Part shown: in pieces, positions 735 through 15,064 of the stretch
Layout of the letters: each line of letters starts with the position of its first letter
How positions within the stretch are numbered: the first letter of the stretch is position 1
Source: an uncultured Spirochaetaceae bacterium
GTDB lineage: Bacteria; Spirochaetota; Spirochaetia; Sphaerochaetales; Sphaerochaetaceae
Direction of reading: 5' to 3'
DNA: 40,293 bases
NCBI GenBank assembly: GCA_944389115.1
Contig: CALXLE010000118.1
Span: 1-40,293 of the forward strand
Notes under the pieces: model-generated
Told to the model about the DNA's origin: nothing
The model's database searches: none
Seen by the model: the letters and a program-made list of their open reading frames with translations, nothing else
Translations under genes and position numbers: made by a program

Positions 735-2138
735 TTAGCCTTCGAAGTATTTCTGTGCGTTGTTGAACGATATGTTCCTTACCATCTCACCGAGGTTGTC
801 GATATCAGCAGGGAACTCTCCATTCTCTACCCAGTTTCCGATCACGTTGCAGAGTATGCGTCTGAAATACTCGTGGCGTGAGTAGGAGAGGAAGGATCTT
901 GAATCTGTGAGCATACCGATGAAAGCCGGGAGCACGCCAACATTTGCAAGAACCTTGATCTGCTCCTCCATTCCATCTTTGTGATCGCAGAACCACCATG
1001 CGGAGCCAAGCTGCATCTTTCCCTTGATTCCATCACCCTGATAGCATCCCATGAGAGTTGCGAGCGTATAGTAATCCTTAGGATTGAGGGTATAGAAGAT
1101 TGTCTTAGGTACTTCATCTGTCTCAGAGAGGGCACCAAAGAACATTGAGATGCCTTCTGCGAGCTCCTTGTCATGCGATGCATCGTAGCCTGTATCCGGC
1201 CCAAGAAGACGGAACATCGTCTTGTTGTTGTCCCTGATTGAGGCGAAGTGGCACTGGAATGCGACATTATTCTTTTTGTATGCACGGGCAAGAGCCGAAA
1301 GGACAAATGTCCTGTATGCATCTGCCTCTTCTGCTGTCACAGCGCTTCCATCCATCCTCTTCTGGAATACAGCATTGACCTTCGAAGCTTCCCAGAATGT
1401 ATGTGGGCAGGTAACAAGAGCATGATCGGATGCTCTGCAGCCCATCTCCACGAAGAACTCAAGTCTCTTCTCAAGAGCCTTGATGACATCTTCTGCGCTC
1501 TTGATTTCGATTCCGGCAGCTGCGCTGAGTTTTGCGATATACTCCGCGAAGTCTGGCTTCTCGATGTTCAGAGCCTTATCGGGGCGGTAGGAAGGAATGA
1601 CCTTTGCAGGGCACTTTCCATCTGCCTTGATGATCTTGTGGTACTTGAGATCATCAGCTGGATCATCCGTTGTTCCGACTGCGTATACCTTGAATTTCTT
1701 CATGATTCCGAAGACGGAGAGCTCTGGATTGGATTTGAACTGCTCATTAGCCTCGTCATAGATCTTCTTTGCATTCTTCCTGCAGAGGATATCATTGATG
1801 CCGAAGTATCTCTGGAGCTCGAGATGCGTCCAGTGATACAGCGGGTTGCCGATGAGATTCTCCATAGTCTCTGCCCATGCGAGGAACTTGTCATATGGAT
1901 CCGCATCGCCAGTGATGAGCTTCTCGTCAAAGCCGCATGCTCTCATCATTCTCCACTTATAGTGGTCGCCGCCAAGCCATGCATCGGTGATAGTTGTGAA
2001 CCTCTTGTCCGATGCAATCTGCTCTGGGATGAGATGGCAATGGTAATCGAATATCTGAGCATCTGCCGCATATTCATGATACAGAGTCTTCGCTGTTCCT
2101 GTTTCCAGAAGGAAATCCTTATCCATAAATGGTTTCAT
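735..2138 (-). CDS. uxaC: Glucuronate/galacturonate isomerase UxaC
   Basis: This enzyme interconverts D-glucuronate and D-fructuronate, and D-galacturonate and D-tagaturonate, in the cytoplasm, the first step of the Uxa hexuronate pathway. The 467-residue product has the usual UxaC length. The metal-binding DYHCHL motif lies at residues 31-36. Other family stretches are GDHYKWR, GNPLYHWTHLELQR, VGTTDDPADDL, ALNIEKPDF (standing where E. coli has AFNIEQ), GMLTDSRSFLSY and RHEYFRRILC. The start codon overlaps the uxaA stop (ATGA), which indicates translational coupling. An internal ATG at codon 5 is possible, but the first ATG follows an AAGGATGG-type ribosome site. Identification is by close recall of the E. 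coli protein. Confidence 0.97.
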   Translation of the reverse strand: MKPFMDKDFLLETGTAKTLYHEYAADAQIFDYHCHLIPEQIASDKRFTTITDAWLGGDHYKWRMMRACGFDEKLITGDADPYDKFLAWAETMENLIGNPLYHWTHLELQRYFGINDILCRKNAKKIYDEANEQFKSNPELSVFGIMKKFKVYAVGTTDDPADDLKYHKIIKADGKCPAKVIPSYRPDKALNIEKPDFAEYIAKLSAAAGIEIKSAEDVIKALEKRLEFFVEMGCRASDHALVTCPHTFWEASKVNAVFQKRMDGSAVTAEEADAYRTFVLSALARAYKKNNVAFQCHFASIRDNNKTMFRLLGPDTGYDASHDKELAEGISMFFGALSETDEVPKTIFYTLNPKDYYTLATLMGCYQGDGIKGKMQLGSAWWFCDHKDGMEEQIKVLANVGVLPAFIGMLTDSRSFLSYSRHEYFRRILCNVIGNWVENGEFPADIDNLGEMVRNISFNNAQKYFEG

Positions 2139-3649
2139 AGTACAACACCATCCTTGAATATCGAGATCTCGGAATAGCCGTTGATCTCGTTCTTCGTATG
2201 CTCTTCCCCATCAGCAACACTGATGATGAACTTGATAAGATCGTCCGTTACCTTCCCCGGATCCTCTGTAAGCATCGGAGATGCATCGAAGTCGATCCAG
2301 TCCTTCTTGTGAAGCGCCAGATTGTGGTTCGTGGCGATCTTCACTGTTGGTACAGGAGCACCGAGCGGAGTTCCACGTCCCGTTGTGAAGAGAATCATGT
2401 GGGCTCCCGCGGCTGTCATATCTGTTGTGGACACGATATCATTGCCTGGGCCAGAGAGCAGTGTAAGTCCGGGTTCAGAGACCCTGTCTCCATAGCCAAG
2501 GACCGATGTTACAGGAGCTCTTCCGCCTTTCTGAACACATCCGAGGCTCTTGTCCTCCAGCGTAGATATTCCGCCAGCTTTGTTGCCTGGTGAAGGATTC
2601 TCATACACAACCTGTCCATGGGCGGTGAAGTAGTGCTTGAAATCCTGGACCATCTTCACTGTCTTATTGAAGATTTCCTCTGTCACAGCCCTGTTCATAA
2701 GCATCTGCTCAGCTCCGAACATCTCCGGAACTTCAGTAAGGATGCCTGTTCCGCCCATTGCCGTGAGGGCATTGCAGAAATGACCTACGAGTGGATTTGC
2801 CGTAATGCCGGAAAGACCATCCGAGCCGCCGCATTTGAATCCAACGACAAGATTGGACATCGGAACCGATTCCCTTCTGTCTGCCTTCATCGTCTCTGCG
2901 ATCTCGCTCATGAGCTTCTTCGCATCGGCAATCTCATCCTCGGACTCCTGGGCTACAAGGAATTTCACCCTTGAGCTGTCAACAGGTCCGAGAAGCTCCT
3001 TGAAGGAATCCATCGTGTTGTTCTCGCATCCAAGGCCGAGCACAAGCACGCCACCGGCATTTGGATGATGTACGAGATCTGCGAGAATCTTCCTTGTGTT
3101 CTCGTGGTCTCCACCCATCTGCGAACAGCCGAACGGATGGATCCATGCATGAACTCCATCCTCGATTCCAAGCGTTTCATTTCCCCATGCTTCAAGCTTC
3201 TCAGCTATGCGGTTGACGCAGCCAACGGTGGGAACAATCCAGAGAGCATTGCGGATGCCTATCTTCCCGTTCTGCCTCTTGTATGCCTTGATCATAGGCA
3301 CATGATCCTTCCATCTTGCCCTGTCTACCTCGGCTTCTCTTATTGCCTCTTCGGCCTGAGCTCTATCATACGTATATTCAGCATCCTCAGAGAGCAAGGT
3401 GTGGATATTGAATGCATGGACATGCTGTCCCTTTCCTATATCCTCCTTGGCCGCACCGATAGGGTAGCCATACTTGATGATCTTCTCTTCCTTCTTTATA
3501 TCCGAGAGGGCAACCTTGTGCCCTCCGGGGATATCAGAGAAGATCGTGAATGTATCTCCATCGACAGTCACAACATCGCCCTTGAAGAGCGGCTCGAGAG
3601 CTACTGCAACATTATCGCGGGGATTGATTCTGATCAGTTTTCTTGCCAT
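2135..3649 (-). CDS. uxaA: Altronate dehydratase UxaA
   Basis: UxaA dehydrates D-altronate to 2-keto-3-deoxy-D-gluconate. The 504-residue protein has the two-part layout of the UxaA/GarD family. A small SAF-like N-terminal domain lies at residues about 1-90 and contains INPRDNVAVAL and DIPGGHKVAL. The large catalytic domain includes IHPFGCSQMGGD, LVLGLGCENN, GFKCGGSDGLSGITANP and the glycine-rich TTGRGTPLGAP. Conserved Cys and His residues in these motifs fit the iron-dependent enzyme. The gene lies three bases after uxaB and overlaps uxaC by four bases. It is a distant paralogue of garD at 13556-15064 in this same window; the flanking uxaB and uxaC genes favour altronate over galactarate as substrate. 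Confidence 0.95.
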   Translation of the reverse strand: MARKLIRINPRDNVAVALEPLFKGDVVTVDGDTFTIFSDIPGGHKVALSDIKKEEKIIKYGYPIGAAKEDIGKGQHVHAFNIHTLLSEDAEYTYDRAQAEEAIREAEVDRARWKDHVPMIKAYKRQNGKIGIRNALWIVPTVGCVNRIAEKLEAWGNETLGIEDGVHAWIHPFGCSQMGGDHENTRKILADLVHHPNAGGVLVLGLGCENNTMDSFKELLGPVDSSRVKFLVAQESEDEIADAKKLMSEIAETMKADRRESVPMSNLVVGFKCGGSDGLSGITANPLVGHFCNALTAMGGTGILTEVPEMFGAEQMLMNRAVTEEIFNKTVKMVQDFKHYFTAHGQVVYENPSPGNKAGGISTLEDKSLGCVQKGGRAPVTSVLGYGDRVSEPGLTLLSGPGNDIVSTTDMTAAGAHMILFTTGRGTPLGAPVPTVKIATNHNLALHKKDWIDFDASPMLTEDPGKVTDDLIKFIISVADGEEHTKNEINGYSEISIFKDGVVL

Positions 3650-3652
3650 AAA

Positions 3653-5131
3653 TCAGAGACTCCTGATGGTTTCTGTCATTCCCTTTGTCCAGATGGACTC
3701 GAGGTAGGAAGCTACCTTGTCCTCAAGACCTGCAACTGCAGTGAGATCCTCTCCCCACCATGCAGACTCGGAAAGAACAGCCTTTGCGATAGTTTTTCCC
3801 TTCTCTGCAGCGTCCTTGTAGGATGCCTTGTAGAGGGAAGCGAACTTCTCAAGGACCTCCGGGCTATCGCTGATAAGGTACTTTTCTCCATTCCTGTTTC
3901 CCTTGAGCGATGTTCCCTCATACTCTGTTCCTTCATAGAAGCTGATGAGAGCTGCAAGCGAGAATGAAAGGACTGTCGGCAGCTTGCCATTCTTCTTTAC
4001 ATAACCGAGAAGCGATGGAAGATCACGCGTCTTGAACTTCGATACGCTGTTGAGGGAGATTGAAAGAAGAAGGTGGACGATATACGGATTGGCGAATCTC
4101 TCGAGAACGTCTCCTGCATACTCCTCAAGCTGCTTCTTGTCGCCGTCCATCGATGGAATGATCTCCTCAAAAAGGCCTCTCTTCATCATTGGGAAGATTA
4201 GATCGGACTTGATGCATTCCTCGACTGTGTTGAGACCTGTCTGGTATGCTGCAAGAACGGACATTGTATGGGCGCCGTTGAGGATGCGGACCTTTCTTGT
4301 CCTGTAGAATGACATATCATCGGTCCAGATGACGTTTACGCCGGCAGCTGCTGTCGGAAGCTCGTCCTCATGTGTTTTTCCATGGCATTCGATGACCCAG
4401 AGAAGGAAGATCTCTGCGCTGTCGAGGAGGTTATCCTTGTATCCGAGCTTCTCGCAGATTGCATCTGCCTCAGCCCTCGGGTATCCCGGAACGATTCTGT
4501 CAACAAGGCTATTGCAGAAATCGCAGGCATTCTCGAGCCAGTCGATGAAGCCCTTCTCGAGACCCCACTCGTTGGAATACTGGAGAACGATCCTCTTGAG
4601 ATTGTCGCCATTCTTGTCGATGAGCTCGCATGGGATAGCTATGATTCCCTTGGATGCGTCACCGTTGAAGTGCTTGTATCTTCTGTAGAGGAAAGCTGCT
4701 ACCTTGCCAGGATATGAGACCTGCGGCCTATCCTCAAGCTTGTCGCCCTCATGGTATGCGATACCAGCCTCTGTTGTATTGGATATGATGAATCTGAGAT
4801 CGGGATTCTCTGCCTGTGCAATGAATGCATCATAATCCGAATAGGGGTTTATGCATCCCGCAACGCTGGTGATCTTCCTGAATTCCTCAACAGGCTTTCC
4901 GTTCTGTACGCCTCTGAGAACGGTCGTGTAGAGACCATTCTGCGTATTGATCATCTCTCCCATGCCGTTGGCGAGCGGCTGTACCATCATCACATCACCG
5001 TTGAAGCCACCCTTCTCATTGAGGATATCGATGATCCAGTCAACGAATGCCCTGAGGAAGTTTCCCTCACCGAACTGAAGTACCTTTACAGGGCGCTGAG
5101 GCTTCTGTACCGTTTCCATGATTGTCTTCAT
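3653..5131 (-). CDS. uxaB: Tagaturonate reductase UxaB (mannitol dehydrogenase family)
   Basis: UxaB reduces D-tagaturonate to D-altronate with NADH. The 492-residue product belongs to the long-chain mannitol dehydrogenase family. An N-terminal nucleotide-binding region has LQFGEGNFLRAFVDWIID at about residues 18-35, and ISNTTEAGI follows further on. The C-terminal domain has RTRKVRILNGAHTM, with the lysine, asparagine and histidine expected at the active site. An AGGAG ribosome site sits seven bases before the ATG at 5131. The ATG overlaps the stop of the upstream transporter gene (ATGA). Fructuronate reductase (UxuB) is the closest alternative, but the partner dehydratase looks like UxaA and no mannonate dehydratase is present, which favours the galacturonate branch. 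Confidence 0.92.
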   Translation of the reverse strand: MKTIMETVQKPQRPVKVLQFGEGNFLRAFVDWIIDILNEKGGFNGDVMMVQPLANGMGEMINTQNGLYTTVLRGVQNGKPVEEFRKITSVAGCINPYSDYDAFIAQAENPDLRFIISNTTEAGIAYHEGDKLEDRPQVSYPGKVAAFLYRRYKHFNGDASKGIIAIPCELIDKNGDNLKRIVLQYSNEWGLEKGFIDWLENACDFCNSLVDRIVPGYPRAEADAICEKLGYKDNLLDSAEIFLLWVIECHGKTHEDELPTAAAGVNVIWTDDMSFYRTRKVRILNGAHTMSVLAAYQTGLNTVEECIKSDLIFPMMKRGLFEEIIPSMDGDKKQLEEYAGDVLERFANPYIVHLLLSISLNSVSKFKTRDLPSLLGYVKKNGKLPTVLSFSLAALISFYEGTEYEGTSLKGNRNGEKYLISDSPEVLEKFASLYKASYKDAAEKGKTIAKAVLSESAWWGEDLTAVAGLEDKVASYLESIWTKGMTETIRSL

Positions 5132-6138
5132 ATGACGTCTCCTTTCCCTTGTGTGTTTTCCATTATATTCTTATCCGGCTTGTTTCCGAAAAGGAAATGC
5201 GCCGAGATTGCCGTTGTTGTCTGCTGCAGCACGATTCCAGAGATTATCGGAATCAGTGAGGCAGGAGGGAAGAACTGTATGGCGAGCACCATTGCTGCCG
5301 ATATATTCTTCATGCTTGATGCGAATGTGACTGAGACCGTATTTGCCTGATCCAGCCTGGCAAGCCTTGCGATGGTCCTCGATATGATGAATCCGAGAAC
5401 TGTGAAGCAGAATGCGGCAAGAGCCTGCGGGATGTATGCCACCGATGCCGATGCGATGAGGTCTTCTGCTATCTGGCTTGTGTTTATTATGACCACAAAG
5501 AGCAGCCCTATCTTCGTGAAGGGCTTGAGCACAGGTACCGCATGGTCCATGCAGTGCCCCTTTGTGATAGCATTTATGAGAATGCCTACAGCTGATGGAA
5601 TCACGACCATGTAAATAAGTGACAGCATCATTCCGGATGTATCGAATTCGATGTGCGATGATGCGAGGACCCTGACTGTAAGCGGAACGGAGATAGGAGC
5701 AAGCATTGTTCCAATCACTATCAGCGTCAGTGAAAGTGCATTGTTTCCGCTGTATATGCTTGACCATATACATCCTACGACCGCTGTCGGAATCGCATAG
5801 AGCAGGACGAATCCTGTTATGACATCTCCATTGCCATGGAAAAGCAGATTCGCCAGCCCCGTCATGATGCATGGCGTGATTATATATGTCGTCAGCAGGA
5901 AGATGAATATGGGTTTCGGCTTTCTGATTATTGCTCCGAAATCCTTCACAGTGACACCCATTCCGCTGACAAGCGTCAGGAATGCGAATAGCGGTGTCAC
6001 TAATGGCTTGCCATCTATGAAGACCTTCGCAGCGACAAGGCCGAGTATCACACCTGTTGGTGTGAGAAGCGGCATCATGCGCTCCAGCCATTTGTTCGCA
6101 GTTATGAGTTTCTGTTCGGCAGCTGAAAAACGGAACAT
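5128..6138 (-). CDS. BASS-family (bile acid:sodium symporter-like) transporter, candidate hexuronate importer
   Basis: This is a 336-residue integral membrane protein with about nine or ten hydrophobic segments. It has the glycine- and proline-rich pattern of the bile acid:Na+ symporter superfamily, for example LLTPTGVILGLVAAKVF near the start, LLYAIPTAVVGCIWSS in the middle, and VSVTFASSMKNISAAMVLA followed by SGIVLQQTTTA near the end. It is the first gene of the uxa operon and overlaps uxaB by four bases, so hexuronate uptake is a sensible inference, but the family normally carries bile acids, pantoate, pyruvate and other organic anions. The ATG at 6138 has no ribosome site and lies six bases from a -10 element, so it may be read from a leaderless message; the Met-Met pair near residue 21 is a fallback start. 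Confidence 0.85.
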   Translation of the reverse strand: MFRFSAAEQKLITANKWLERMMPLLTPTGVILGLVAAKVFIDGKPLVTPLFAFLTLVSGMGVTVKDFGAIIRKPKPIFIFLLTTYIITPCIMTGLANLLFHGNGDVITGFVLLYAIPTAVVGCIWSSIYSGNNALSLTLIVIGTMLAPISVPLTVRVLASSHIEFDTSGMMLSLIYMVVIPSAVGILINAITKGHCMDHAVPVLKPFTKIGLLFVVIINTSQIAEDLIASASVAYIPQALAAFCFTVLGFIISRTIARLARLDQANTVSVTFASSMKNISAAMVLAIQFFPPASLIPIISGIVLQQTTTAISAHFLFGNKPDKNIMENTQGKGDVI

Positions 6139-6144
6139 AGTTTC

Positions 6145-6172
6145 AGTTTAGTCCATTATGGCAATCTGTCAA
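6145..6172 (-). promoter_or_regulatory. Promoter of the uxa operon
   Basis: On the minus strand a perfect TTGACA (6172-6167) is followed after 16 bases by TAAACT (6150-6145, four of six consensus positions). Only six bases separate the -10 element from the ATG at 6138, so the predicted transcript would begin at or very near the start codon. No other candidate pair stands out in this short divergent interval. Confidence 0.6.
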
Positions 6173-6185
6173 ATATATTTGCCAT
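6158..6185. promoter_or_regulatory. Operator-like inverted repeats over the uxa -35 element
   Basis: Two nested symmetries are visible. ATGGCAA (6158-6164) and TTGCCAT (6179-6185) are inverted copies 14 bases apart. Inside lies a perfect 12-base palindrome, CAAATATATTTG (6170-6181), which covers part of the TTGACA. The position suits a repressor of the uxa operon, and either the divergent AraC-type regulator or the IclR regulator at 1-718 could bind. A related CAAAT...ATTTG palindrome covers the -35 of the galactarate operon at 11655-11674. Confidence 0.5.
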
Positions 6186-6220
6186 TCATAGAGGAATTTC
6201 GGCACAATAAAATCAGAAAA

Positions 6221-9142
6221 ATGGCAGAAAGAATAGGATTCATAACATCGAACATATATCAAGGGACAAGCATAGCGATGTGGAAGGCTTTATCGGAAGT
6301 ATTCCGGACGGCCCCCGGCTGCTCCCTCTTCATCCTTCCCGGAGGTCGGCTCAACGCAGCTGATGACAGTGAGAATATGCGTTCTATGATATACGATCTT
6401 GCCTGCAAAGGATCTCTTGATGGAATCATGATATGGGCATCCTCGCTGTCAGGCTTTGCAAGAAAAAGCGATATCGTGAGATTTGTCCGCGAGATTGCTG
6501 CGGATATACCTGCCGTTGTCATAGGAATGGATGCCGATGGAATTCCTTCGGTTACATTTGATGACTACAGCGGGATGAGAGCGCTTGTCAGCCATTTCAT
6601 AGAGGTACATGGAGAGAGGCGCATTGCGTTCCTCCGCGGTCCTGAGAACCACGGCGGAGCTGAGGAGAGATACAGAGCGTACTGTGATGCACTGTCCGTC
6701 CATGGTATAGCGGTTGATAACAGGCTTGTATCAGGGCCGCATGGATGGAATGATGGGGTTGGGGCAATCCGTGATCTTACCGATTCGGAAGCTCTCGTTC
6801 CCGGCAGGGATTTCACAGCCATGGTTGCGGCATCGGATCTCCTTCTTACATCAGCTGTCCTGCATCTTGAAAAGCAGGGGATAACAGTACCTGATGACCT
6901 GAGGATAGGCGGGTTCAACGATACAGATGATAATCAGAGGCTTTCCACCGGACTTACCACAGTGCGTCTGCCAGTGGCCAGGATCATATCAGTGGCATAC
7001 TCGATGCTGCGCGCCCTTATGGAAGGGAGGCCTGCAGCGAGCCAATGCATCAGGACAGAGCTTGTGATACGCAATTCCTGCGGATGTGTATCGGATAGGA
7101 TAGCGGGAGAGCCTGGAAATCATTATGAGGGAGTCCAGCGTATTCTTTCCTCCTGTGGCAACCGGAGCGATCTCCATGAGAGTATTTCCGCTTTCATCGC
7201 AGCATCCGGCGATGCCGATATCCTTGTTGATGCTGTCATGAAGCGCCCGGATGCGCTCATGCTCGGTCATGAGATCACAAGGGAATACAGAAGGACGGAG
7301 GCAGAGCTAAGGAGCAGAGTGCGCAATGAAAGCCGGATCCTTGATGTCTTCAAGACGGGCCTGCTTGCAGCAAGATCCTATGAAGCAATCCCTCCTATCA
7401 TGCAGAAGAGTTTTCCCGATATAGGGATAAGGAACTGCTTTCTTGTTCTTCATAAAGAAGGACGCTCTGTCATGAGAGCTGGGTTCTCAGGAGGTATGCT
7501 GTATTCCACACCATGTTCCTTCCCTGAGAACATGATGCTTTCGGAATCAATATGCAGTCAGCTTGAGCAAGGTGTGTATATAGTAGAGCCTCTGTTCTAT
7601 GGAAGATCGGAACTCGGCCATCTCGTCTTCTCGATGGAGGGCAATGGCAGTTATATCGCCGAGAATCTGCGCTCGTCCTTCTCTGCAGCAGTCAGAGGCA
7701 TAGAGCTCTTTGAGGAAGCTACCAGGATGAGGAATGAAGCGGAACGGAGCGAGAACGATGCCCAGATGTTCTATTCCAAGCTATCCCAGGGAGTACTTCA
7801 GCCTATATCGGAGATGAGAGGGCTTCTTCTCGCGCATGATATTGACAGGGAAAAGCTTGCGATGAAGCTTTCTGAGGCTGAGCATATACTCAGGCTGGCG
7901 CTTATGGAACGTGCAGGCTATTCCCCTGAGAAGAGACTCATACCATTCAGCCATATGGTCCCTGTGCTTGAATCCATCGGCTTCGGGCTAGATATCCCTA
8001 TGGATCTTCCCTCGTTCGAAATCGATAAGACAGCATTTGCCGAGATGATGCATCTGATAAGATCATGGGGAGACCAGATCAATGGCTATCTGGATGATAG
8101 AGGTCTCAGGCTTTCAATCAGCATAGGGGAGGAAGGGGAAGGCAGTCCGTCGCTTATTCTTGCGGAGCGTATAGCATTCTTCTCGTCTTATGGATTCGCG
8201 ATAGAAGGCAGAAGGCTTATCATATCCATTCCATATCCACAGCTTACTGATGGTTCATCGCCAGAAGGAAGATCTGGGATTCTCTTTCTTAGGGGTGATT
8301 CCCAAGATGATATTCCTGATGCGATAGCAGGCATTGCCTCTTTGGATAATCCGCATCCAATGACCATAGCGTGGCGCTATGGCGATGTGCCTTCATCGCT
8401 CATAGAAGGATATAAGGATTCATGCATGGCTTGCTTTTCGCTTGGTAAGGAAGCTGCATCGCTTGAATCGGTATTGTTCCCAGAGAATCTTATCCTTGTC
8501 TATGGGGATATTGAGCTACCATCAGCAATTTCTGGCAGGGCTATCAGGATACGCTCCAGGGAGGAGTCACTGAAGGCAGGAACTGTCTCGGCCGTAATCC
8601 TCTCTGGTGTGGATGTGCAGGATGTTCTCTGGTTCAGGTCCGAAGCGGCTTTTGCCTCCGTACCTATCATATATATAAAAGATAGATTCCAGATGGAGGA
8701 GACCGAGGCCTTTTCCACTGCACCTTCAATGCTGATGCTGAATCCATCAGTTTTTGCTTCTTCTGACGCGGTGAAGCGGCTTTCCGGGGTAATCAATGGC
8801 GATGATATGCTTCCTGCGTTCACAGCCTCCCCGGTCAGAAGAGCCATAGCATATATGAACGGGAAATCCGGATCAGTGATATCCCGCTGGCAGATTGCTG
8901 AGGCTGCTGGCGTGAATGAGGACTATCTTACACGCATATTCCATAGGGAAATCGGAATCTCGCCATGGGAATATCTCTGTCTTTACCGTGTCCATGCTGC
9001 AAAGGTACTTCTCTCTTCAACAGCACTTCCTGTCCGGGATATAGCCGCAGAGACTGGATTCCAGGATCCTGCATATTTCTCTAGGGTCTTCAGGAAGATT
9101 GCTGGGATGTCTCCTGGGGATTTCAGAAAGCTCCATGAATAG
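6221..9142 (+). CDS. Large sugar-sensing regulator: LacI-like binding domain, GAF-like and degenerate kinase/receiver-like regions, AraC HTH
   Basis: A cytoplasmic transcription factor of 973 residues. Residues about 3-290 resemble the periplasmic-binding-protein fold of LacI/XylR-type sensors (ERIGFITSNIYQGTS at the start, HGERRIAFLRGP, DDLRIGGFND, ending RNSCGC). A GAF-like segment follows at about 365-500. Then comes KLSQGVLQPISEMRGLLLA, which resembles a histidine-kinase dimerisation helix without its histidine, and a receiver-like strand pattern (VSAVILSGV ... SVPIIYIKDRF) without an obvious acceptor aspartate. The last 100 residues are a typical AraC DNA-binding domain (WQIAEAAGVNEDYLTRIF and DIAAETGFQDPAYFSRVF). 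The ATG at 6158 would add 21 residues but lies inside the operator region; the ATG at 6221 starts exactly at the binding domain, so I chose it although neither start has a strong ribosome site. It is divergent from the uxa operon and upstream of GH105, so control of pectin use is likely. Confidence 0.85.
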   Translation: MAERIGFITSNIYQGTSIAMWKALSEVFRTAPGCSLFILPGGRLNAADDSENMRSMIYDLACKGSLDGIMIWASSLSGFARKSDIVRFVREIAADIPAVVIGMDADGIPSVTFDDYSGMRALVSHFIEVHGERRIAFLRGPENHGGAEERYRAYCDALSVHGIAVDNRLVSGPHGWNDGVGAIRDLTDSEALVPGRDFTAMVAASDLLLTSAVLHLEKQGITVPDDLRIGGFNDTDDNQRLSTGLTTVRLPVARIISVAYSMLRALMEGRPAASQCIRTELVIRNSCGCVSDRIAGEPGNHYEGVQRILSSCGNRSDLHESISAFIAASGDADILVDAVMKRPDALMLGHEITREYRRTEAELRSRVRNESRILDVFKTGLLAARSYEAIPPIMQKSFPDIGIRNCFLVLHKEGRSVMRAGFSGGMLYSTPCSFPENMMLSESICSQLEQGVYIVEPLFYGRSELGHLVFSMEGNGSYIAENLRSSFSAAVRGIELFEEATRMRNEAERSENDAQMFYSKLSQGVLQPISEMRGLLLAHDIDREKLAMKLSEAEHILRLALMERAGYSPEKRLIPFSHMVPVLESIGFGLDIPMDLPSFEIDKTAFAEMMHLIRSWGDQINGYLDDRGLRLSISIGEEGEGSPSLILAERIAFFSSYGFAIEGRRLIISIPYPQLTDGSSPEGRSGILFLRGDSQDDIPDAIAGIASLDNPHPMTIAWRYGDVPSSLIEGYKDSCMACFSLGKEAASLESVLFPENLILVYGDIELPSAISGRAIRIRSREESLKAGTVSAVILSGVDVQDVLWFRSEAAFASVPIIYIKDRFQMEETEAFSTAPSMLMLNPSVFASSDAVKRLSGVINGDDMLPAFTASPVRRAIAYMNGKSGSVISRWQIAEAAGVNEDYLTRIFHREIGISPWEYLCLYRVHAAKVLLSSTALPVRDIAAETGFQDPAYFSRVFRKIAGMSPGDFRKLHE

Positions 9143-9343: not shown

Positions 9344-10543
9344 ATGGTTTTCGATCTCTATTTCAAGCAGTATACAAAGTGGTTCGCTTCATATGACAGG
9401 AACACGTGGAATTACGAGGATGCCTGTGTGATTATAGGCCTCAGGGAGCTTTATTCTGCCACAGGCGATAAAGTCTGGTGGGATGCCATAAAGGCTTTCT
9501 ACAGCAGATATATCAATGAAGATGGCACTATCAGGCTCTATGATGAGTCGGAGTACAATCTTGACAGGATTCCAGGAGGAAGGGCTCTTTTCGATCTGCT
9601 GAAGGAAACAGGGGAGGAGAAGTACAGAAAGGCCATCGAGGCGCTTGCTGGTCAGATGAAGAGACAGCCAAGGGCCAAGTGCGGCAGCTTCTGGCACAAG
9701 AACATCTATCCGAACCAGATTTGGCTCGATGGGCTCTATATGGGTCTTCCGTTCTATATGCTCTATGCAAATCTAACAGGTGATGCATCAATCTATGATG
9801 ATGTCGTCAGGCAGTTCAGAAATGCCAGGGAGCATATCTTCGATGAGGAGAAGAAGATTTACTACCACGCCTGGGATGAGAGCCGCTCGATCTTCTGGTG
9901 CGATAAGGAGACAGGACTTTCAGCCAATTTCTGGTCCAGGGCCCTTGGATGGTATCTCATGGCACTCGCTGATGTATATGAGTACATGCCGGAGGACAGG
10001 AAGGAGGACCGTGAGACGATTGCCAGCATCTGGAAGGAAGCCATGGATGGAATGCTGCTTTACCAGGATAAGGAGAGCGGTATGTTCTATCAGCTTACGG
10101 CACTGGGAAAGACTGTCGAGGGAAATTATCTTGAGACGAGTTCTTCTATGATGGTCGCATACAGTCTCTTCAAGGGAGCTCTTCTCGGGGTCTTCAAGGA
10201 TGAGCATTATATCGATGCTGCAATATCCGCTCTTATGGGAACAGCTATACAGAAGTTTACTTTCGTCAATGGAAAGCTCTCCCTTGGCGGTATGTGCAAG
10301 GGGGCCGGTCTTGGTCCAGATGGAAACTTCAAGAGGGATGGCAGCGTTGCATATTACCTTGCAGAAGAGGTCGTTGCCGATGAGCAGAAGGGTACAGGCG
10401 TCTCAATGCTTGCCTACGCTGAGTATATAAAGGCGGCAAAGGCGGGGCTTATTCCCGATTCGTTCCCGCATGTGGAGCTGTTCAAGCGCAATTACGATCC
10501 GATCCTTCCTACGGATCCTGGATTCAAAGCCACGATGAATTGA
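9344..10543 (+). CDS. GH105 unsaturated rhamnogalacturonyl/galacturonyl hydrolase
   Basis: This enzyme removes the 4,5-unsaturated uronic acid left on pectin oligosaccharides by lyases. The 399-residue product shows the alpha/alpha-barrel pattern of YteR/YesR proteins. QIWLDGLYMGLPFYM carries the probable catalytic aspartate at residue 129. Other family stretches are GSFWHKNIYPNQ, YYHAWDESRS and FWSRALGWYLMAL. There is no signal peptide, so it acts in the cytoplasm on imported oligosaccharides. The product, 5-keto-4-deoxyuronate, would join the KDG pool that the neighbouring uxa operon also feeds. AAAGGAG lies six bases before the ATG. It has its own promoter and a terminator directly behind it, so it is probably monocistronic. 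Confidence 0.93.
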   Translation: MVFDLYFKQYTKWFASYDRNTWNYEDACVIIGLRELYSATGDKVWWDAIKAFYSRYINEDGTIRLYDESEYNLDRIPGGRALFDLLKETGEEKYRKAIEALAGQMKRQPRAKCGSFWHKNIYPNQIWLDGLYMGLPFYMLYANLTGDASIYDDVVRQFRNAREHIFDEEKKIYYHAWDESRSIFWCDKETGLSANFWSRALGWYLMALADVYEYMPEDRKEDRETIASIWKEAMDGMLLYQDKESGMFYQLTALGKTVEGNYLETSSSMMVAYSLFKGALLGVFKDEHYIDAAISALMGTAIQKFTFVNGKLSLGGMCKGAGLGPDGNFKRDGSVAYYLAEEVVADEQKGTGVSMLAYAEYIKAAKAGLIPDSFPHVELFKRNYDPILPTDPGFKATMN

Positions 10544-13555: not shown

Positions 13556-15064
13556 ATGAGACTCATCAGGATATCCTCAGAGGATAATGTCGCGATTGCT
13601 GTAACGGCCATAGAGAAAGGCAGTGTCATCGACGGATTCGGTTTCTCCGTGCTTTCCGATGTTCCGCAGGGGCATAAGGTAGCTCTTGAAGACATGAGGA
13701 AAGGTGATAAAGTCATCCGCTATGGCGTTGAGCTCGGTACTGTCAACAGGGATGTTCAGAAAGGTGAGTGGATCAATGAGAAGATGATCGATCTTCCTCT
13801 TTCCCCGGCTCTTTCATCTCTTCGTCCTGGCAGCAAAGGCGTTGTCTACCCGAATCCGCCTGAAAGGAAGACCTTTCTTGGTTATGATAACGGCGATGGG
13901 CGCTATGCTGGGACGAGAAATCTCCTTGGCATTGCTACGACCGTGCAGTGCACAGCCGGCGTGCTGAGGATTGCTGCGGAGAAGATCCGCAAGGAGATTC
14001 TCCCGAAGTATCCGAATGTTGATGGAGTCTCCGCTCTTATCCATCCATATGGATGCGGTGTCGCTATCAATGCAACCGATGCTTACATTCCAATCAGGAA
14101 TGTCTCGAATCTCATCCACCATCCGAATTTCGGCGGAGAACTCATGGTTGTCGGCCTCGGATGCGAGAAGCTTACGTTCGACCGCGTTCTCGCTCCGGAT
14201 GAGATAAATGACAATAATGTGCTTGTCCTTCAGAAGTGCCATGGTTTTGCCGATATGGTCGCTTCTATCTGCCGCATGGCGGAGAAGAAGCTCCAGCGTC
14301 TGAATGAAAGAAGGCGCACAGAGCTTCCTCTCGATAAGCTCATTGTCGGAACGCAGTGCGGCGGGTCCGATGCTTTCAGCGGCATCAGCGCGAATCCTTC
14401 AATCGGAAGGGCATTCGATATGCTTGCTGCAAATGGTGCTACAGTGATGTTCTCCGAGGTCACAGAGGTCCGTGACGGCGTGCATTTCCTTGCAGACCGC
14501 TGTTCCTCCGAGGAGGTTGTCGAGAAGCTGAAGAAGGAAATCGGCTGGTATGATGAATATCTTGCCAAGGGCGGTGCTGACAGAAGCGCGAATCCGACTC
14601 CGGGCAATAAAGCCGGTGGACTGAGCAATATCGTCGAGAAGGCGATGGGGTCGATTGCCAAGAGCGGACATTCGCCTATCGTAGAGGTAATAGGACCAGG
14701 AGAGCTCCCGACTAAGCATGGTCTCATATTCGCGGCAACGCCAGCCAGCGATATTGTATGCGGGCCTACACAGCTTGCATCTGGCATAACGCTGCAGGTA
14801 TTCAGTACTGGCCGCGGTACGCCGTATTCGCTCGCAGAGATACCTGTAATGAAGATATCCACTCATTCAGAGCTTTTCGAGATGTGGCCTGATCTCTTCG
14901 ATGTCGATGCCGGTGGCATAGTCACAGGCACGAAGTCCATTGATGATGTAGGACGTGATCTCTACAATATGATTCTTGATGTTGCAAGCGGGAAGAAGAG
15001 CAAGGCGGAGGCCCTTGGCCTGTATAATGATCTGGTCATTGACAATCCTGCGCCTATAACCTGA
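13556..15064 (+). CDS. garD: Galactarate dehydratase GarD
   Basis: GarD dehydrates D-galactarate to 5-keto-4-deoxy-D-glucarate. The 502 residues match GarD from end to end: an N-terminal SAF-like domain (SEDNVAIAV, DVPQGHKVAL), then NLLGIATTVQCTAGV, HPYGCGVAINA, VVGLGCEKL, GTQCGGSDAFSGISANPS, SEVTEVRDGVHFL, RSANPTPGNKAGGLSN, FSTGRGTPYSLAEIPV and the terminal NPAPIT. Conserved cysteines suit the metal-dependent enzyme. A GGGGGAAGGAG purine run precedes the ATG. It lies 19 bases after garR and 13 bases before the IclR gene. Altronate dehydratase (UxaA) is the nearest paralogue and is encoded separately at 2135-3649. Confidence 0.95.
   Translation: MRLIRISSEDNVAIAVTAIEKGSVIDGFGFSVLSDVPQGHKVALEDMRKGDKVIRYGVELGTVNRDVQKGEWINEKMIDLPLSPALSSLRPGSKGVVYPNPPERKTFLGYDNGDGRYAGTRNLLGIATTVQCTAGVLRIAAEKIRKEILPKYPNVDGVSALIHPYGCGVAINATDAYIPIRNVSNLIHHPNFGGELMVVGLGCEKLTFDRVLAPDEINDNNVLVLQKCHGFADMVASICRMAEKKLQRLNERRRTELPLDKLIVGTQCGGSDAFSGISANPSIGRAFDMLAANGATVMFSEVTEVRDGVHFLADRCSSEEVVEKLKKEIGWYDEYLAKGGADRSANPTPGNKAGGLSNIVEKAMGSIAKSGHSPIVEVIGPGELPTKHGLIFAATPASDIVCGPTQLASGITLQVFSTGRGTPYSLAEIPVMKISTHSELFEMWPDLFDVDAGGIVTGTKSIDDVGRDLYNMILDVASGKKSKAEALGLYNDLVIDNPAPIT

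Follow-up and report, generated by a model that had tools for sequence, protein, structure and literature searches.

A spirochaete LacI/AraC-type regulator with degenerate histidine kinase and receiver domains, encoded among uronate catabolism genes

Bacteroides hybrid two-component systems (HTCS) join a sensor, HisKA, HATPase, receiver and AraC output domain in one chain, sense glycans and control polysaccharide genes, and an inhibitory receiver-AraC contact restrains their DNA binding (PMC11253607). ChiS of Vibrio cholerae, a noncanonical hybrid sensor kinase, binds DNA to regulate carbohydrate genes (PMC10208484), and the one-component regulator XylR of E. coli (PDB 4fe7; ~390 aa) combines a cytoplasmic LacI/PBP-type sugar-binding domain with an AraC domain in one chain. 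Folds of signalling proteins may also be kept after catalysis is lost, as in the pseudo-histidine kinase DivL and the pseudo-receivers FrzS and NblR. The acceptor His is reported to be missing in 0.9% of HisKA domains and the acceptor Asp in 2.0% of receivers, and the abstract of the same review calls the switching mechanisms of bacterial pseudo-receivers a mystery (PMC12632262).

The window analysed here is a stretch of 40,293 nucleotides (contig CALXLE010000118.1 of assembly GCA_944389115.1) from an uncultured Spirochaetaceae bacterium, and it encodes a protein of 973 aa (Table 1) that shares features with each of these systems. At fold level a single chain combines sensor, kinase, receiver and DNA-binding modules, as in HTCS, but HTCS have membrane sensors and a working kinase and receiver, whereas this protein has a LacI-type sensor without a membrane segment and has lost the phosphotransfer residues. 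XylR has the same two end domains and one-component character without a kinase- or receiver-derived middle, and ChiS is likewise hybrid-kinase-like but is membrane-embedded and has a different DNA-binding domain. Unlike DivL, FrzS and NblR, a dead kinase and a dead receiver are found here in one chain with a sensor and a DNA-binding domain. Our survey of the openly licensed literature found no description of a degenerate LacI/pseudo-kinase/AraC family, nor a published name for the intact LacI-sensor hybrid kinases (L091/L092 type) described below.

Table 1. Positions of the regulator, its domains and the neighbouring genes and promoter elements in the window.
Feature	Position	Strand	Support
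Whole gene, 973 aa: LacI-type / GAF-like / pseudo-HisKA / pseudo-HATPase / pseudo-receiver(s) / AraC	6221..9142	+	
LacI/Peripla_BP_3-type ligand-binding domain, residues 1-290	6221..7090	+	Pfam 1.4e-21; LacI-type PDB matches
Invariant Cys287-Gly288-Cys289 (RxSCGC), end of LacI-type domain	7079..7087	+	40/40 sequences
GAF-like domain, residues 345-500	7253..7720	+	Profile-profile 27-54%, controls <=0.9%
Pseudo-HisKA, residues 501-575; H-box remnant FYSKLSQGVLQPI; Gln523 (7787-7789) in the place of the histidine	7721..7945	+	
Pseudo-HATPase, residues 590-676; N-box, G1 and G2 lost; Asp602 and Pro673 invariant	7988..8248	+	
First receiver-like stretch, residues 679-745, weak	8255..8455	+	3.7% vs receivers; 41% vs second stretch
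Pseudo-receiver, residues 757-862; Ser795 (8603-8605) in the place of Asp, Pro842 in the place of Lys	8489..8806	+	
AraC-type DNA-binding domain, residues 892-970	8894..9130	+	Pfam HTH_18 2.2e-23
Divergent promoter region: conserved palindrome TGAAACTATGTTCC (6132-6145, minus strand) and TGTCAAATATATTTGC element	6132..6186		
uxaC, glucuronate isomerase, probable target	735..2138	-	PRK02925 3.6e-176
UxaA/GarD-type altronate or galactarate dehydratase, probable target	2135..3649	-	GD_AH_C 1.6e-97
uxaB, tagaturonate reductase, probable target	3653..5131	-	PRK03643 7.9e-193
SBF-family transporter, divergent from regulator	5128..6138	-	Pfam 2.9e-24
GH88-family unsaturated uronyl hydrolase, downstream, probable target	9344..10543	+	Pfam 9.6e-82

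The reading frame contains no internal stop and is open upstream as far as an ATG at 6158, and the alignment of relatives begins at the 6221 start. Pfam analysis identified the two ends that the preliminary description had read as LacI-like and AraC, with the Peripla_BP_3 match covering residues 125-287, and the protein thus has the anatomy of a one-component regulator, a ligand-binding and a DNA-binding domain in one protein, and by its C-terminal HTH_18 domain belongs with the AraC/XylS family. The LacI helix-turn-helix was absent from the N-terminus in the Pfam search, and the protein begins inside the sugar-binding domain. The middle of ~570 residues gave no Pfam match for the single sequence, even at E 10, and NCBIfam and PDB searches with the single sequence matched at the two ends only. 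The CxC motif at the end of the LacI-type domain occurs in nearly all of the 94 relatives regardless of output domain, is missing from three ordinary LacI-type proteins of the same genome, and is possibly a metal or redox site.

The middle was examined through profiles built from ~60 relatives. A profile of residues 500-678, built from sequences without the acceptor His, matched histidine kinases in the PDB (5c93, E=5e-10; 4u7n, 7e-10; 4i5s, 3e-9), with DivL and RetS among the matches. Profile-profile comparison (hhalign) of the HisKA and HATPase parts with genuine kinases, aligned from this genome and from relatives, gave a probability of 99.5% (E=9e-23, 187 columns), in comparison to <=0.5% for unrelated control profiles (receivers, LacI-type and AraC domains) against the kinases; as the E-values of hhalign pairs cover a single comparison, the weight of this result and of the profile-profile results below rests on the controls. 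Individually, 8 of 40 members matched Pfam HisKA (best 3e-5). In the MAFFT alignment, the F-x-A-x-x-S-H-E-L-R-T-P-L of working kinases is replaced by a clear H-box remnant, F(Y/F)A-x-V-S-E-x-L-R-x-P-L, LPYPxLSG comes after what is left of the G2 box, and strands like those of receivers can be seen. The place of the histidine is taken by E (35), D (8), S (8), Q (3), A (2) and others in the 61 degenerate sequences and by H in none, the H-box proline is kept in 58 of them, the N-box Asn, G1 motif and G2 glycines no longer form recognisable motifs, and Asp602 and Pro673 do not vary among 40 sequences.

These data describe a pseudo-histidine kinase, with histidine-kinase homology and no acceptor His, that lacks the acceptor histidine and the ATP-binding N, G1 and G2 boxes of HTCS. 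The kinase helix without its histidine and the ATPase-like remnant, both proposed in the preliminary description, were recovered by the profile-profile comparisons with controls, and intact hybrids of the same domain order in the same class bear them out; the HisKA, HATPase and receiver folds were matched with their key residues lost. Misalignment of intact acceptor residues had been named as one case against this assignment; BLASTP of the protein with the intact hybrid L091 aligned residues 321-538 directly through the H-box (E=3e-10) as well as residues 781-970 (E=3e-31), so the catalytic positions were not misaligned. The motif loss may be compatible with nucleotide binding in a remodelled pocket.

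Residues 748-866 matched genuine receivers with a probability of 92.4% (E=5e-7; controls <0.5%) in profile-profile comparison, and the PDB matches of this profile were mostly receivers, albeit weak (best E=0.045). The place of the acceptor Asp is occupied by Asp in 9 of the 61 degenerate sequences, and that of the acidic pair is Gly762/Asp763 here. The stretch is thus a pseudo-receiver, with receiver homology and without the acceptor Asp, acidic pair or Lys of HTCS receivers; a receiver-like fold lacking the aspartate had been suggested from the first reading of the sequence. Asp798 was considered as a shifted acceptor and rejected, since it varies among relatives and neither the acidic pair nor the Lys survives; phosphorylation at another residue, for example Asp798, may still be compatible with loss of the known motifs. 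The structure prediction proposed earlier for the middle was of mixed value. The full-length AlphaFold model, built from two input sequences, reached a pLDDT of 34 and did not bear on the folds, while a model of the second receiver alone (pLDDT 58, pTM 0.56) aligned mostly to CheY/PhoB/DivK-type receivers at a Z of ~5 (VIA-align), which is below the level of a secure fold match and supportive only; Foldseek with this fragment model returned no significant match. The weaker first receiver-like stretch has an equivalent position in intact hybrids.

The GAF part of the earlier reading fared less well. Residues 345-500 matched GAF profiles at 27%, rising to 54% when more relatives were included, in comparison to <=0.9% for controls, but with no Pfam match and one short weak PDB match only, and a GAF identity is plausible from the profiles. 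The GAF-like domain is common to relatives with kinase, GGDEF or MCP outputs. The LacI-type and GAF-like module in spirochaetes was also found fused to HisKA/HisKA_3, SpoIIE phosphatase and receiver+Hpt outputs, and relatives with such varied outputs include L090, L094, L100, L101, L103, L105, L107 and L110.

Relatives of the protein are widespread in its own family, where 106 of 139 genomes possess a match at E 1e-30 or better and 105 of 139 possess the kinase-like part, in single copy in all but one. The nearest named relative (L010, uncultured Spirochaetaceae bacterium) is 90% identical. Across the phylum sample, 84 of 393 genomes reach E 1e-40 or better against the family profile, some of them sharing the sensor part only, and a scan of viral contigs found no further sequences. 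Two proteins from a different family of the same class, L091 (1258 aa) and L092 (1226 aa), are intact hybrids with Pfam matches to Peripla_BP_3, HisKA (L091, 2.7e-12), HATPase_c (2.4e-26), Response_reg (5.2e-12) and HTH_18. Both keep SHELRTPL, NLLENARR, DTGSGI and GIGLGL together with the receiver Asp (VLDLGLPG in L091), and they retain the H, N, G1, G2, Asp and Lys that the 973 aa protein lacks. Profiles of the dead family matched L091 in the order LacI, GAF-like, kinase (4e-22), first receiver-like (4e-5), second receiver (2e-3) and AraC, and L091 and L092 share the order LacI, GAF-like, HisKA, HATPase, receiver-like, receiver, AraC with our protein. An intermediate (L154) has SEEFRHP in the H-box and a partly kept G2 box. 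Three shorter relatives (L053:1410-3644, L054:1382-3607 and L157) keep the LacI-type and GAF-like parts and lack the kinase-like part, and L053 and L054 retain receiver-like and AraC domains as well.

The occurrence of intact hybrids, degenerate forms and kinase-less relatives indicates that live, dead and deleted forms coexist. In trees of the LacI-type domain, with or without the AraC domain, live forms were nested among dead ones with three changes, at least two of them on well-supported branches, although long branches and possible domain shuffling blur the root and the number and direction of changes. A single loss of kinase activity was considered, but intact and dead forms do not make up two clades in these trees, and the pattern fits repeated loss or domain shuffling. 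This can be interpreted, tentatively and at somewhat short of even chances, as a phylum-wide family of two-component systems reverting to one-component regulators, perhaps repeatedly, in which phosphotransfer was lost, selection kept the folds as an allosteric conduit, the kinase was then deleted in some lineages and the uronate targets stayed constant. Both acceptors are lost in one chain here, with live relatives at hand, and the family offers a natural live/dead/deleted series for asking how kinase and receiver folds signal without phosphate.

The dead form is under purifying selection. In comparison with L010, dN/dS was 0.10 for the whole gene, 0.12 for the kinase-like part, 0.15 for the receivers and 0.057 for the GAF-like part, and frames are open in nearly all relatives; a pseudogene was rejected on these two grounds. 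The regulator had a dN of 0.050 and a dS of 0.49, in comparison to 0.002-0.012 and 0.16-0.26 for UxaA/B/C and the transporter. At the amino-acid level it diverges ~4-30x faster than the neighbouring Uxa enzymes and transporter (735-6138), and its sugar-binding domain shares in this.

The regulator is flanked by uronate genes, and the genes downstream of it encode GH88, a dehydrogenase, a DHDPS-family aldolase, tartronate-semialdehyde reductase, galactarate dehydratase and an IclR regulator. Among the loci of 37 relatives, uxa genes were found in 25, GH88 in 28 and either in 36, and GH88 lies near both intact hybrids. Across the 139 family genomes, 102 possess both the regulator and GH88, 3 the regulator only, 9 GH88 only and 25 neither (Fisher 6e-17, uncorrected for kinship), with corresponding values for UxaC of 102, 3, 22 and 12 (Fisher 2e-6, likewise uncorrected). 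The dead state is family-wide and linked to uronate genes, which, like the second and weaker receiver-like stretch, goes beyond the preliminary description. Because of this linkage and co-occurrence with uxa and GH88, a sugar acid derived from pectin or uronate is the most likely ligand, and the gene is likely a regulator of pectin-sugar use in spirochaetes. Two different altronate/galactarate-dehydratase paralogues lie within 13 kb, one at 2135-3649 with uxaB/uxaC and one at 13556-15064 with tartronate-semialdehyde reductase, which suggests parallel uronate and aldarate pathways.

With live-looking relatives and pectin-sugar gene neighbours, the protein looks like a two-component system reverted to a single-protein switch. 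We consider it likely that a hybrid two-component regulator was stripped of phosphotransfer and now acts as a one-component switch for galacturonate/pectin catabolism, and the catalytic-residue loss is consistent with regulation by ligand without phosphotransfer. A uronate-related ligand would bind the cytoplasmic LacI-type domain, and the change would be relayed via the GAF-like domain and the retained, presumably dimeric pseudo-kinase helices to the pseudo-receiver, which would free the AraC domain or position it on the DNA of the divergent uxa promoter, the DNA site and the direction of control both being putative. The AraC domain would probably act at the GH88 operon too. A receiver-AraC contact checking DNA binding is a plausible feature in common with Bacteroides HTCS, and could be worked by ligand instead of phosphate.

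Alternatively, and as the preliminary description also raised in proposing two ligands, the protein may be a two-input switch, with a sugar acid at the LacI-type domain and a further small molecule at the GAF-like or pseudo-ATPase domain; the middle would then itself be a sensor and not just conduct the signal. Within the middle, the GAF-like region shows the strongest conservation and is common to relatives with other outputs, and the pseudo-receivers of ShkA and CikA bind small ligands (PMC12632262), but the GAF assignment is weak, no conserved binding-site signature was identified, and the kinase-like and receiver-like parts vary strongly among relatives, and we regard a second input as unlikely. 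A continuing place in a phosphorelay, with a separate kinase phosphorylating the pseudo-receiver or the pseudo-kinase modulating a different two-component system in trans in the manner of DivL and RetS, appears quite improbable for a protein that carries its own DNA-binding domain, does not conserve the acceptor Asp, acidic pair or Lys of its pseudo-receiver, and has metabolic genes and one IclR regulator as its ten nearest genes, even though the genome has 10 receiver and 13 HATPase_c matches and DivL and RetS appear among the profile matches.

That the middle is a decaying, functionless relic, and that the LacI-type and AraC domains alone matter, would accord with the kinase-deleted relatives (L053, L054 and L157) and with divergence much faster than that of the neighbouring enzymes. 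Open frames in nearly all relatives, dN/dS of ~0.12-0.15 in the dead parts and the invariant Asp602 and Pro673 make such decay highly improbable. Hardly credible is a middle of unrelated folds whose likeness arose by chance, since the profile tests with controls, the BLASTP match to an intact hybrid through the H-box and a domain order identical to that of intact hybrids stand against the empty single-sequence Pfam search of this region and the low pLDDT of the full-length model.

The divergent promoter, where the proposed one-component uronate switch would act, holds elements that are identical or nearly so at 4 close loci and recognisable at several others, with a single match in the window. 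A TGTCAAA element in this region reads as a -35-like TTTGACA for the uxa side. The palindrome TGAAACTATGTTCC resembles KdgR/IclR-type operators and may be a site for the IclR regulator, not for the 973 aa protein; together, the IclR-family neighbour and the KdgR-like palindrome suggest a further regulator at the uxa promoter. IclR-family genes were found near the regulator in many loci.
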